A DNA stretch of 64,000 nt, from contig VXUA01000042.1 in NCBI GenBank assembly GCA_009837185.1, forward strand, positions 1-64,000, given 5' to 3'. This document shows positions 40,998 to 46,112 of the stretch, in pieces. How positions within the stretch are numbered: the first letter of the stretch is position 1; every line of letters begins with the position of its first letter. The translations under genes and the position numbers were made by a program. The DNA is from Gammaproteobacteria bacterium. GTDB taxonomy: Bacteria > Pseudomonadota > Gammaproteobacteria > Pseudomonadales > Azotimanducaceae. The notes beneath the pieces are model-generated. The model had not been told where the DNA came from. It made no database searches and saw only the letters and a program-made list of their open reading frames with translations.

Positions 40998-42797
40998 TTA
41001 CCCACCATTCCTGTCGCGCAAGAACCCTCGGAGCTGTTCAGACATTTTTGGATTGCGTAATTTGCGTAATGCCGTAGCTTCGACTTTTCTGACCTGTTCT
41101 TTTGTGACGTTGAGCGACTCTTTAATTTCCTCTAAGGAATACTCGCGCGCTAAACCGACTCCAAAGCGCATTCTGAGAATCTCAGCTTCCTCGGAGCTAA
41201 GTTCTGTGAGAAGTTCGGTAACGATGTCGTGCAGGTTTGCTGTCGTGGCATTTTCGGCTGGTCCAATCGCATTTGGATCGTCTAGAATATCGCCGATGGA
41301 ATTTTCGCTGTCTTGCTGGACCGGTGCATCTATGGAGATTGGCTCCACGCAGACGCGCTGAATTTGGTGAATTTTCTTGTGGCTTATTGAAGATTTGTCG
41401 CTAAGTTCCGCTATAGTCGGTTCACGACCTAATTCTTGCACTAATTGTCGATGAGTTTTATTCAGTCGTTTCATAGTCTCGACGAGATGCGCGGGGATTC
41501 TTATCGTTTGTGCGTTTTCAGCAATGCAGCGAGAAACCCCTTGTCTGATCCACCATGTCGCATAGGTGGCGAACTTATAACCAAGTCGGTAGTCGTATTT
41601 TTCGACAGCTTTCAACAACCCGATATTTCCTTCTTGAATCAAATCTAAAAGGTACAGTCCTCGATTGGACAGTTTTCTAGCAATGGAAATTACGAGTCTT
41701 AAGTTTGCTCGAACCAAGTCTTGTCTTGCGTCCGCAGCTTTCCTTTCGCCCAATTTCATCTGCTCAATGATTTCATTCAATTCGCGTCGAGAGATACCTA
41801 CCTTTTTTAGTAAGTTGTTGATGTATTTTTGTGACTTTGCTATATCGCCACGTAGTTCACGTAACTCGGAGCTCCAAGGCTCGGTAGACTTGGTTTCTTG
41901 ATTCAACCATTGCGCATCGGACAACGTTTGAATCACAAGTCTTGATTTGGGCATTCCGCTAGACAGACATAATTGGAAAATTCTGCGCTCGTGTTTTTGT
42001 ACTTTTCTTTGCAACGTGTGCGGTAAAGAGTGCAGTTCCTTACGAAACTCGGGTACCAACTTAAAGCGCGCGTATGTGTTACAGAGACGCTTTTGCGCCC
42101 CTAGGTACCTTCTCGATGACTTTCCGTCTTGACGAATCGCTCTTTTGAAATTTCCATAGACTCGTTTGAGTTCTGTAAAACGCTCTTGTGCAACCTTGGG
42201 ATCGATGATGTCGTTTCTTGTCCCATTTGATTGTTGAGTAGAGTTGGAATTAGCGGTTTTCGCCGGTATCACAGTGCGTACTGGGTCGAGAAACCCATAC
42301 ACAACACTTTTGAGTCTATGTTCCCGTCGTGCTTTTCCGTGCTTAGTGAGCAAGCGTTCTACGACGCCTGGAAATCGCGCGGCGGCAACTGCTTCTTCTC
42401 GCAAACCTTCCTCATATCGCATTGCAATTTCAATCTCTTCGTCACGCGAAAGTAACTTACTCTGTCGTAAGCCGCGTAAATAGCTGTATGAGAGACTTGT
42501 ACTTTCGCCATTACGCGTTTCACGTACATTGATTCCTACGGCATTTGCATCCGTTTCAAAATCCGACCCATTCGTCCTGGATGATTCTTGAGAAACTTCA
42601 AAATCTTCACGGAGTCCGTGAATAGGAATTTCTAGACTACACAACAAGCGTATAACGTTGTCTAGTAAATTCTCACGAGGGGAATCATCGTCAAGATATT
42701 CGGTGATTTCGTCGACGGTCAGGTAACCTTGTTCCTGACCTATGTCGATCAAATCCTTGATTTGGATTTGCCTTGACTCAGTGTGTGATGTCTGCAT
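40998..42797 (-). CDS. Second RpoD-like (sigma-70 group 1/2) sigma factor
   Basis: The frame is open from 43019, but the ATG at 42797 (after an AGAGAA ribosome-binding region) gives 599 residues beginning with region 1.1 ([19 protein letters not shown]). It keeps the non-conserved region, regions 2.1-2.4 ([28 protein letters not shown]), region 3 and region 4. Changes from the standard RpoD occur in promoter-reading parts: [10 protein letters not shown] in region 2.4, and [17 protein letters not shown] in the -35-reading helix where canonical RpoD has [17 protein letters not shown]. It probably reads an altered promoter set. The canonical-like rpoD lies 1.5 kb away on the same strand. Confidence 0.88.
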
Positions 42798-43038
42798 ATT
42801 CGTTCTCTGCTTATTGCAGTTGCGAAAATATTCACGAGACGTTTGTCGAGCGACAAAATCGATGCGTCTGTAAATTGAGACACAATAATTTAAAAAAAGT
42901 TCTTTTTTGGGTTCAGTAATACCCAGTACTGAAATGTTGAGGAGTTCTTTCACCTTGAATGTAGGTTTGTGAACGACGTGTGGGGAAACATACAATTTAG
43001 AGGACAACAGTACCTCCACTTTTAGAGATTTAGAGTAC

Positions 43039-43449
43039 TTGGAAGAAAAACCGTCGATCGAACCGCTCGTTCGTGCAATAGCGCGCCTAGAAGAGGGAAT
43101 GGAGCGTTACCTGTCGAGTACTAAAGATACTCAATTGCGGGATGGCCTGATACAACGATTCGAATTCACCTAAGAGGCCTCTCACAGAACTTTGAAGCGA
43201 TATCTCGAGTATGCCTCACCGAACCCTGCTGAGATTGATGAGATGACGTTTCAAGATCTCATTCGAACAGCAAATGAACGAGGCTTGTTGCTACGGGATT
43301 GGTCAGACTGGCGCTTTTTTCGTGACATGCGTTCCAAGACGAGCCATACGTACGACGAAGCTACTGCAGTTCAAGTCGTCGAGGATTTACCGGTCTTTAT
43401 CGAAGAAGTCATTCATTTACGCAACAAATTGCAGGAACATCTCTCGTGA
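43039..43449 (+). pseudogene. HepT/HI0074-like toxin gene interrupted by an in-frame stop
   Basis: Reading from TTG 43039, the frame encodes an HI0074-type helical protein ([15 protein letters not shown], then LRDGLIQRFEFT). It meets TAA at 43171-43173 where relatives have an aromatic residue (FEFT-F/Y-E). The same frame continues with EASHRTLKRYLEYA and reaches the RNase motif RX4HXY in MRSKTSHTYDE before ending at 43449. A single C-to-A change in a tyrosine codon would explain the stop. A TTG at 43192 could re-start the C-terminal 85 residues. The following MNT gene overlaps its end. Confidence 0.75.
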
Positions 43450-43772
43450 AGCAAATGAGCGAAACTGTCGATCTAAAACCGGATCAATTGTTCCTCGTGA
43501 AATCGATTTTGAATCGGTACGTACCTAACCGAGACGTGGTGGCATTTGGATCGCGGGCGACTTGGACGGCAAAAGAATATTCTGATCTTGATCTTGCGAT
43601 ACTGGGTCAGGAACCTCTGTCGGGAAGGATCACTGCTTCTCTACGTGAAGAGTTCGTTGAGTCGGCGTTACCGTTCAAGGTCGATATTGTCGAGTGGGCG
43701 AGGGTTAACGACGAGTTTCGTGCTATCATTCTTCGCGACGGAGTGGAACTCAACGCTAATGATGCAGTTTAA
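43446..43772 (+). CDS. MNT-type nucleotidyltransferase (antitoxin partner of HepT)
   Basis: The 108-residue minimal nucleotidyltransferase has the G-S-x10-D-x-D signature, visible as FGSRATWTAKEYSDLDLAI (about residues 34-52), and the third acidic site in KVDIVEWA (about 80-87). HI0073/MntA-type proteins neutralise HepT RNases by attaching AMP to their tyrosine. GTG 43446 overlaps the upstream stop. The enzyme core looks intact although its HepT partner is interrupted. Confidence 0.85.
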   Translation: MKQMSETVDLKPDQLFLVKSILNRYVPNRDVVAFGSRATWTAKEYSDLDLAILGQEPLSGRITASLREEFVESALPFKVDIVEWARVNDEFRAIILRDGVELNANDAV

Positions 43773-43830: not shown

Positions 43831-44181
43831 GGGCCCATAGCTCAGTTGGTTAGAGCAGTGGACTCATCAAATGGTGCGTTCAATGTGAAAGCGTTGAATA
43901 GAACGGGATGAATTCAGGGAAACCTAAGACGATTAAGTCATCGTTAAGGCAACCTTGAGCCAAACCAACGATACATCGTTGGGAGGTGCAGAGACTACCT
44001 GAGAACTGATCGCAGTTCGCGCGGTCGAGAGTTCTTAATGACAGGCTTGAGCGTCCCGCGCCCTCACCAGCATGTGCTGTCGGGCGATGAGATAGTCCAC
44101 GCCACTGGAAACAGTGGGTGTCTAGATTCTTCTAGATCGTGAATCCATAGGTCCCAGGTTCGAGTCCTGGTGGGCCCACCA
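43831..44181 (+). tRNA. tRNA-Ile(CAU), interrupted by a group I intron
   Basis: Joining 43831-43867 to 44142-44181 gives a complete cloverleaf. The acceptor stem is GGGCCCA/TGGGCCC, the D arm is GCTC...GAGC, the anticodon stem is GTGGA/TCCAT around the loop CT-CAT-AA, and the T arm is CCAGG-TTCGAGT-CCTGG. The discriminator is A and CCA is encoded. The anticodon CAT could belong to elongator Met or to Ile2, whose first base is made lysidine by TilS. The GGACTCATAATCC anticodon arm and the position next to rpoD (as with E. coli ileX) favour Ile2. The intron splits it exactly after the third anticodon base. Confidence 0.92.
43868..44141 (+). ncRNA. Group I self-splicing intron (IC3-like), 274 nt
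   Basis: The insert carries the group I core in order. A GTG internal guide (43874-43876) can pair with the exon CAT, giving the U-G pair at the 5' splice site. P2 is TTCAATG/CGTTGAA (43879-43898). The P/Q strands are ATTCAGGGAAACCTAAG (about 43912-43928) and AAGGCAACCTTGAGCC (43946-43961). A P6-like hairpin is CCAACGA/TCGTTGG (43965-43982). R is AGGTGCAGAGACTA and S is GAGATAGTCCA, with P7 pairing GACTA (43993-43997) to TAGTC (44093-44097). A P9 hairpin CCACTG-GAAA-CAGTGG (44102-44117) and a TCTAGA hairpin (44121-44136) end at a terminal G. It contains no endonuclease gene. The core strongly resembles the Azoarcus tRNA-Ile(CAU) ribozyme as I recall it. Confidence 0.93.
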
Positions 44182-44294: not shown

Positions 44295-46112
44295 TTATCC
44301 GTTCCAATCCGTAAGACGAGACTTTAGATGTCGCAGAGCTTTTGCTTCGATTTGACGAATGCGCTCTCGAGTGATATTGAACACTCTACCGACTTCTTCG
44401 AGTGTATACTCTGTGTTCTGACCGATACCAAATCGCATCCTTAGAACTTTCGCTTCGCGGGAACTAAGTTCGCCCAAGCGTTCGTGAATGACGTCCCTCA
44501 ACCCTCGAGATTCTGCTTGATCCATTGGCGTAGATTCATACGGGTCTTTGAGAAAATCACCTAAACTAGCGTCGTCGTCTTCACCTATCGGAGCATCTGT
44601 AGATGCTGGTTGGATACTGATTCCTTGAATATGTCGAATCTTATCAAGAATTAATTCCATTCTTGCAGATAGTTCATCGACCGTGGGCTCGCGTCCTAGT
44701 TCTTGTGACAACTGTCTATGGATGCGGTTATGCTTGTTAACCAAATCAAACATGTGAACCGGTATTCGAATAGTCCGAGATTGATCCGAAATCGAGCGCG
44801 TAATTGCTTGTCGAATCCACCACGTGGCATATGTCGAAAATTTATACCCACGGCGGTATTCAAACTTGTCGACGGCTTTCATCAACCCAATATTGCCTTC
44901 TTGGATTAAGTCGAGAAAGTGGAGACCACGATTGTTGTATTTTTTGGCGATCGAAATCACTAAACGCAGATTCGCTTTAACCATTTGGCGTTTTGCGCTT
45001 TCCATCTTGCGCTGGCCTTTGGTAATTCGACTATCAATGTCCTTAAGGGTCGAGTACTTTTTCACACCACTATCGTTAAGAATTGCATTGACGCGTCGTT
45101 GATGGCGAAATATCTCTGTTTTCTTTATCAGTAAACCACTACTGTAAAGATAGTCTCCCCGAATGTGGTGGCGCATGTCAGTTATAGTACCTGGCGGCGA
45201 GACTCGTACCAGTTCTTTGAAAATTTCTCTCGGCATTCCGCTCTCCCTTACGCAAATCTGAAAGAGCAGCTTTATTCGCCGGCGGACTTCCGCCATAGCA
45301 TTAAGTGGTTGGCCGAGCAGCTCTTCATGTGCTTCAGGTGTTAGTTTGAATCGGGAGAAGCAGTCAATCAACTTTTCATGGGATGCCGCCAATTCTGCTT
45401 GTTCAGATTTATTCAACCGGCTGGGGCGTTTGTTTTTGGTAATCCGTTCAACGACCTTCTTGTGTCTTTCGTTGACTTTGCGTAGAGCTTCGAAGCGAGT
45501 TTGGGCGATCTCGGGATCCGGCCCCCGAGTACGTGGTGTAGTCTGTTGCGGAGGCTTTTTAGTCGCGTCGATTTGTACTGGATTCTGAATTTCGGCATCA
45601 GGATCTAGGTAGCCGACTAGTAAGTCGCTTAGCTTCTTCTTTTTATTGGTGTTGTCATATTGTTCGATTAACCAATCGACCGTACCGGGGAATTCTGCAA
45701 CGGCTTTGAGAATGTCTCGCATACCTTCTTCGATCTCGCGCGCAATTTTGATCTCATCGTCTCGCGTGAGTAACTCAACTCCCCCCATTTCGCGCAAGTA
45801 CATGCGTGCGGGATCGGTTGTTCGGCGCGCCTCGGAAGTGACCGCGGCTAGAGCGATCGCAGCTTCGTCAGCGGCAACATCGTCCGATGAGTTTTCGGTC
45901 GTGGTGAACAGATTTTCTCCGTCGGGAGCAGCTTCATCGACGCTAATCCCGAGGTCCATCAGGTTATGTATGATGTCATCGATCTCGTCTTCGTCGCGGT
46001 CATTACTTAACACGTCGTGAATATCTGCGATAACCAAGTAGCCTTGGTCGCGCCCGCGTTCAATGAGTTCTTCGATGGGACTCTGTTCGGTATCGGTATT
46101 TGGGTTGGGCAT
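44295..46112 (-). CDS. rpoD: RNA polymerase primary sigma factor RpoD (sigma-70)
   Basis: The 605-residue protein has region 1.1 ([19 protein letters not shown]), [19 protein letters not shown] (region 1.2), a long non-conserved region (about 130-350), region 2 with [26 protein letters not shown] and [15 protein letters not shown], and region 4.2 with [18 protein letters not shown], the canonical -35 reader. It ends [10 protein letters not shown] soon after that helix, without the SRSxxLRSFL-type tail seen in most RpoD proteins, a small truncation or divergence. It is the last gene of the rpsU-yqeY-dnaG-rpoD unit. The standard promoter-reading residues mark it as the housekeeping factor. Confidence 0.95.

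Follow-up and report, generated by a model that had tools for sequence, protein, structure and literature searches.

What interrupts the tRNA-Ile(CAU) gene at 43831-44181 of this stretch, to which lineage does the insert belong, and does the cell depend on its removal? These questions were addressed in the whole stretch of 64,000 nucleotides (called the window here), in the genome assembly to which it belongs, and in related genomes and viral contigs.

A group I intron in tRNA-Ile(CAU)

An Rfam scan of the 64-kb window returned RF00028 at 43856-44118 of the forward strand (75.8 bits, E 1.8e-17). This was the sole gathering-level match in the window; it exceeds the curated cut-off of 50 bits and covers the model entirely (positions 1-253 of 253). 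The flanking exons, 43831-43867 with the anticodon CAU as its last bases and 44142-44181 with an encoded CCA, join into a single 77-nt tRNA, called with a CAT anticodon, whose stems are all paired (one G.U). A search of the organism's own assembly with the joined tRNA recovered both exon pieces at 100% identity, and because the match breaks at query 37|38 the insert was set at 43868-44141, 274 nt that begin 3' of anticodon position 36 and end with a G at 44141. The insertion site is 36/37, directly 3' of the anticodon. The P3-P8 and P4-P6 core, the guanosine site in P7, the U.G at the 5' site and the terminal G are all present. Judged by its sequence, 43868-44141 is surely a group I intron (RF00028) splitting tRNA-Ile(CAU). 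No endonuclease was found inside it, the longest stop-free stretches being 64 codons on the forward and 83 on the reverse strand, and promoter and terminator scans around the tRNA gene gave 0 hits. The preliminary description had drawn the intron at exactly these coordinates, with exons rejoining into a cloverleaf and without an endonuclease, and all of this held.

The unspliced region 43831-44181 gave no tRNA call, and ARAGORN run without introns reported 0 tRNAs across the whole window, an example of tRNA-Ile2 being overlooked by default tRNA searches. The available text on tRNAscan-SE 2.0 counts 36 genomes in which group I introns account for a missing fMet or Ile2, Acidovorax and Burkholderia being named (PMC8450103); likened by description alone, their tRNA-Ile2 introns are group I introns splitting the same tRNA. 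Group I introns in tRNA-Ile2 are known. The table of a 2014 review, in the portion accessible, places group I tRNA introns in cyanobacteria and alpha- and betaproteobacteria only (PMC4033280), and a search of titles, abstract openings and passages, with subscription literature mostly outside its range, met neither a P7.1/P7.2 domain in tRNA-Ile(CAU) introns of gammaproteobacteria nor an Ile(CAU) family of that kind.

Fold of the intron and the domain between P7 and P3

The fold was examined on 47 aligned tRNA-Ile introns with a structure drawn by hand on the first sequence, P3 and P7 being treated as crossing helices. Paired cells made up 97.5% of 2866, against 86.5% in shuffles, and 27 of the 61 pairs showed changes on both sides. 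Covariation reached 0.362 versus 0.132 after shuffling, with none of 500 shuffles as high (the shuffles ignore relatedness) and slid controls at 0.05-0.08. P7, P5 and P7.1 are invariant among the Ile introns and therefore uninformative for covariation. Folded alone, the intron has a minimum free energy of -99.6 kcal/mol (z-score -3.69), and 0 of 200 shuffles were equally stable.

All elements lie on the forward strand. In P1 (43865-43876) the exon's CAU plus a C pair with the guide GGUG (43873-43876), and the wobble U43867.G43874, kept in 46 of 47 relatives, marks the 5' splice site. P2 (43879-43898), capped by a GAAA loop at 43887-43890, shows both-sided changes in 8/8 pairs. The 5' strand of P3 (43904-43910) pairs with 44052-44058 in 99.4% of cells. 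It is followed by the P4-P5 domain (43914-43958), placed by RF00028 and the 47-intron alignment, and by P6-P6a (43959-43987), where P6a has both-sided changes in 7/7 pairs. By eye, CCUAAG/UAAGG in P5 looks like the 11-nt GAAA receptor. The 5' strand of P7, GACUA (43993-43997), is identical in all 47 sequences and meets UAGUC at 44093-44097, which like the 3' strand of P3 was placed by the 47-intron alignment. P9.0 (44099-44101), with both-sided changes in 2/3 pairs, joins 44138-44140 and fixes the 3' splice site, and P9 (44102-44117) carries a GAAA loop at 44108-44111 according to RF00028 and the same alignment. The P7 pairing, the GAAA-capped P9, the GTG guide and the terminal G of the preliminary description could all be located in this fold. 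A further hairpin 3' of P9 (44119-44137) was recognised from the window's fold and from tail lengths: a longer post-P9 tail was seen in 17/17 introns of the genus and in 2 of 19 parsed introns from the rest of the family.

The preliminary description had also reported an enlarged P8 at about 44000-44085. This was rejected, as both the RF00028 alignment and the 47-intron fold give P8 an ordinary size (44061-44084) and put the extra 48 nt, 43998-44045, between the 5' strand of P7 (43993-43997) and the 3' strand of P3 (44052-44058). The alignments resolve this domain into P7.1 (CCUG/CAGG), P7.2 (GAAC/GUUC) and an inner hairpin; the four pairs of P7.2 show many double changes, and the P7.1 pairs do not vary among Ile introns. 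When 14 introns of tRNA-Ile, Leu(CAA), Lys(CUU), Thr(UGU), tmRNA and viral contigs were aligned, 5 of 8 pairs had changed on both sides and covariation was 0.515 versus 0.096 shuffled, the two Thr rows being misaligned and gapped at P7.1.

Two hairpins, P7.1 and P7.2, are given as features of class IA2 in the accessible part of one source (PMC4227781), and the available text of another (PMC1995217) describes them in phage Twort as wrapping round the guanosine pocket and stabilising it. The window's intron has both between P7 and P3, stacked in one composite arm as opposed to two separate hairpins; as to the extended P9 of IA2 (P9.0, P9.1, P9.2), the window's intron shows a covarying P9.0 and a single extra hairpin (44119-44137). 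The domain was found in 36/36 parsed introns of the genus and family (37 in total; L049 failed to parse) and in 22/22 parsed class-level Ile(36/37) introns, so that the class sample held no domain-less Ile intron at 36/37 among those parsed. Other tRNA introns were surveyed at 72 loci, of which 25 had no tRNA call and 47 were scored: P7 runs straight into P3 in 40 of them, and the remaining 7 are four Thr(UGU), one Lys(CUU) and one Leu(CAA) intron with the domain and one ambiguous case. We thus place the window's intron, with probability rather than certainty, in an IA2-like lineage bearing P7.1/P7.2, an assignment made by the domain. Exon reading puts the splits of tRNA-Thr(UGU) and tRNA-Lys(CUU) at L237, L238, L241, L245 and L249, all with a similar domain, at 36/37 as well; two tRNA-Ile(CAU) genes (L291, L268) read as split between 33 and 34, the intron being domain-less in L291 and ambiguous in L268.

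An old intron at the rpoD-ileX locus

The Ile intron is complete in 17 of the genus's 18 genomes; in the remaining one (G003) a contig end cuts it, leaving its 3' part. Outside the genus, 20/73 family genomes carry it, and others, some of them in genera with carriers, have an uninterrupted gene of up to 97% identity. The class sample gave an RF00028 match at E 0.001 in 54 of 370 genomes, over the cut-off in 40. A scan of named genomes returned at least 120 stretches, 82 of which parsed as Ile(36/37) introns and 38 did not (contig ends, divergent exons, other hosts); among the 82 listed, 80 are from Pseudomonadota and 68 are labelled Gammaproteobacteria, and the named carriers among the matches listed include Lysobacter, Luteimonas, Dyella and Rhodanobacter strains, for instance Luteimonas aestuarii B9, Dyella psychrodurans 4MSK11 and Rhodanobacter fulvus Jip2. 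An exact 19-base pattern with no mismatch allowed met only the organism's own genome in a phylum sample of 397, mostly near-complete genomes, which is not an estimate of frequency. The same intron in a metagenome-assembled genome labelled Actinomycetes (L143) may reflect misbinning.

The tRNA gene is flanked by rpoD (44295-46112, reverse strand; Pfam sigma-70 regions and synteny), whose 3' end points towards it, and the gammaproteobacterial setting beside rpoD given in the preliminary description was borne out. An rpoD match was present in the fetched stretch for 105 of the 141 Ile introns that parsed, at a median distance of 235 bases from the intron, and in 104 its 3' end points to the tRNA; the other 36 stretches, many of which have short flanks, gave none. 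The tRNA gene and rpoD lie on opposite strands in 23 of the 105 loci, the window's included, and on the same strand in 81. The E. coli order is rpsU-dnaG-rpoD-mug-ileX, and rpoD lies beside 9 of 12 fetched intronless genes. The intron sits at the old, ancestral rpoD-ileX locus.

Intron distances correlated with RpoD distances: Mantel r was 0.64 (n 95), fell to 0.62 in a thinned set (n 44) and was 0.77 in the genus and family (n 26), and none of 999 permutations reached any of these values. In 25 of 44 rows the nearest neighbour by RpoD was one of the five nearest by intron. These results point to a long residence and a mostly vertical descent with gain or loss in places. The two rpoD paralogues in the window may blur the RpoD distances. 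The ribozyme had been described as old or laterally acquired: the first part stands for the genus (18/18 genomes, one partial) and its ancestral locus, but elsewhere in the family (20/73) the intron has been gained or lost. The two rpoD-like genes, 40998-43019 and 44295-46112, are 37% identical and flank the tRNA. Just 5' of the tRNA, at 43192-43772, lies a gene pair with NTase_sub_bind (PF08780) and nucleotidyltransferase (PF01909/PF18765) domains, which we take to resemble a HEPN/MNT toxin-antitoxin pair.

Relation to the Azoarcus intron

The Azoarcus intron, which we take to be inserted at the same 36/37 bond of tRNA-Ile(CAU) and to carry the label IC3, was the natural point of comparison, and the preliminary description had likened both the insertion point and the core to it. 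As far as the available text on Azoarcus goes, the two introns share the host tRNA, a GTG guide in P1 (read from a printed construct for Azoarcus), a short length and GAAA in L2 and L9. With what we take to be the same bond in Azoarcus, the likeness of the insertion point was upheld. The core proved different. The one published Azoarcus construct compared, with seven N positions and its first eight bases absent, reads GACTAGACGG in the accessible text of PMC8890501, with P7 running directly into P3 and no domain, whereas the window's intron has its 48 nt there.

Trees of tRNA introns were built with the domain removed prior to alignment and with L067, L118, L161, L260 and L273 excluded. In two trees the domain-bearing tRNA introns formed one side of a branch with support of 100/100 and 100/99.9, and Azoarcus fell on the opposite side with Leu(UAA), Arg(CCU) and one 33/34 Ile intron. 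Because Azoarcus and the window's intron lie across a 100/100 branch, two intron lineages would hold the same tRNA-Ile(CAU) bond, which makes convergent anticodon targeting testable. The other reading, in which an Azoarcus-type (IC3) tRNA intron came from betaproteobacteria and the side domain grew later, would account for the common tRNA, the presumed common 36/37 bond, the CAU/GTG guide logic and the GAAA loops, and placing Azoarcus basal to all domain-bearing introns was not rejected (p-AU 0.477). We nevertheless regard it as unlikely, as Azoarcus stays with the domain-less Leu and Arg introns after excision of the domain and as the domain motif is common to introns of viral contigs. Forcing Azoarcus and Ile(36/37) into one group, picked after the first tree, lowered the log-likelihood by 26-28 units (p-AU 0.016 and 0.030).

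Viral relatives and other hosts

Viral contigs were scanned with a 19-base pattern spanning core and domain, which gave at least 134 matches on at least 120 stretches. Since the pattern held the first six bases of the domain, only the far half is an independent test; it was found in 133 of the 134 matches listed, and a tRNA around the intron in none of these 134. RF00028 was recovered in 15 of 15 viral loci sent to Rfam, and the psbA leader PhotoRC-II at 9 of them, so cyanophage psbA introns are probably among the matches. These IA2-like introns of viral contigs and phages have a CCUGAG-helix-CUUAAU-ACAGG domain in the same place as the window's intron. One of them, L372, has the P3 strands CGGGATG/CGTCCCG in common with it; L372, however, overlaps a 244-aa frame with an HNH endonuclease domain beside a capsid-like gene, whereas the window's intron has a tRNA host and no endonuclease. 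Carriage by a named phage was rejected: 28 of 50,697 GenBank phage records matched, none over 80% of the intron, and the best rows listed covered 35-40%. Plasmid carriage was likewise rejected (0 matches in 72,556 plasmid records).

Seventy-five of the 134 listed viral matches could be cut, and thinning by likeness left 22 for a 63-row tree, in which L067, L118 and L161 were recut and included. Its 49 domain-bearing rows (22 viral, 20 Ile, 3 Thr, 1 Lys, 2 Leu(CAA), 1 tmRNA) were separated by a 100/100 branch from 14 others, Azoarcus and Leu/Arg introns among them. A split of viral, Leu(CAA) and tmRNA introns from Ile, Thr, Lys, Leu(UAA), Arg and Azoarcus introns was not rejected at 0.05 (p-AU 0.056). 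As far as these comparisons of sequence reach, the window's intron is one that shares its domain and its side of the tree with phage introns; bacterial tRNA introns are thereby linked to phage introns, and phages may have been the source of the lineage.

Among other hosts, tRNA-Leu(CAA) at L067 (about 1468-1821) and L118 is split at 32/33 by exon reading, and the domain-bearing introns group with the viral ones. At L161 (reverse strand, about 970-1470) a Hymenobacter tmRNA gene, its identity read from the sequence, seems to have its T-loop split by a domain-bearing intron. Group I introns of the tmRNA T-loop also have a P7.1 region in the accessible text of PMC11915505, in a host RNA and position that differ from the window's.

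That a group I ribozyme of the phage-related, P7.1/P7.2-bearing lineage inserted 3' of the tRNA-Ile(CAU) anticodon is what we hold with good confidence. We lean, by a modest degree, to the broader reading that a phage-born family of P7.1/P7.2 ribozymes, apart from the IC3 tRNA introns, repeatedly colonised bacterial structural RNAs by changing its guide (Ile(CAU), Thr(UGU) and Lys(CUU) at 36/37, Leu(CAA) at 32/33, the tmRNA T-loop), that it reached the Azoarcus bond in tRNA-Ile(CAU) independently, and that it is now genus-wide in the sole AUA-decoding gene detected in the genome searched.

Splicing and the decoding of AUA

Group I introns splice in two steps initiated by guanosine, and by analogy the window's intron should work like any other in a tRNA. 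After transcription, the guide GGUG (43873-43876) would pair with the exon anticodon CAU, and a guanosine bound in P7 would attack the U.G-marked bond 3' of 43867. The freed end of the 5' exon would then attack the bond 3' of the terminal G (44141), held by P9.0, and the exons would be ligated into a tRNA that TilS could turn into an AUA reader. This course is modelled on the fold and the established chemistry of the class.

A second intact tRNA-Ile(CAU), which according to the preliminary description would make this copy dispensable, was looked for in the 95%-complete assembly and none was found. The search with the joined tRNA led us to reject such a spare gene, the next longest match being 74% over 70 bases and the others shorter, partial and to other tRNAs. 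All 36 tRNA-model matches of the genome were examined; by our reading the two with CAT are elongator and initiator Met, and neither Ile(CAU) nor Leu(UAA) is among the 36. The genome has TilS (153.7 bits versus a cut-off of 93.6), and AUA codons as well as UUA codons occur in 7/7 window genes counted, rpoD and dnaG included. The lack of another reader, the presence of TilS and the use of AUA codons make it very likely that AUA decoding hangs on the window's ribozyme, in an assembly 95.27% complete on 86 contigs, from which an intact copy could be absent. We infer that the intron splices in the cell and would be needed for growth.

Two other accounts of its presence were weighed. A dead or slowly decaying insert, with the tRNA no longer made and AUA read otherwise, is very improbable: decay does happen, as in a named relative (L169) where a truncated copy of the intron lies next to an intact tRNA, but the 97.5% of paired cells and the strong compensatory change argue against it, and the eight nearest introns outside the closest relatives differ by 0.25-0.27 against 0.35-0.57 for RpoD. 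No other AUA reader was found either, with AUA codons in rpoD and dnaG. A regulator retained for its effect, in which GTP- and Mg2+-dependent splicing limits the AUA tRNA, and the UUA tRNA through a second intron, in starvation, would agree with the two introns in 18/18 genus genomes (Ile partial in one), both in single-gene tRNAs of the organism's own genome, and with an Ile intron dispensable enough in the family to be found in 20/73 other genomes only. Neutral retention gives the same pattern, however, and no ligand-binding feature was seen, so this account is improbable too, if less so than decay. The preferred reading stays that of a splicing intron on which the AUA tRNA very likely depends. 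At L169 (312-635) the intact tRNA-Ile(CAU) is followed by the truncated intron and a 3' exon, which looks like decay after replacement.

Other introns of the genome and its relatives

The second group I intron of the organism's own genome (L002; G000:C57, about 1476-1795) lies in its sole detected tRNA-Leu(UAA) and has no extra domain; its RF00028 score of 43.8 bits (E 3.6e-9) is under the cut-off of 50. The Leu(UAA) intron occurs in 18/18 genomes of the genus. An ARAGORN call of Ser(GCT) at L015 (about 1500-1574, G000:C53) is too short for Ser and has no CCA. Three genomes of one family genus (g21), which also carry the Ile intron, have introns in tRNA-Arg(CCU) (L081, L082, L096). Introns of 23S rRNA were met in members of the genus and family (L062, L066, L076, L084, L098, L071); a frame in L062, L066, L076 and L084 looks by eye like what we take to be a LAGLIDADG endonuclease, and L071 seemingly holds two introns close together.
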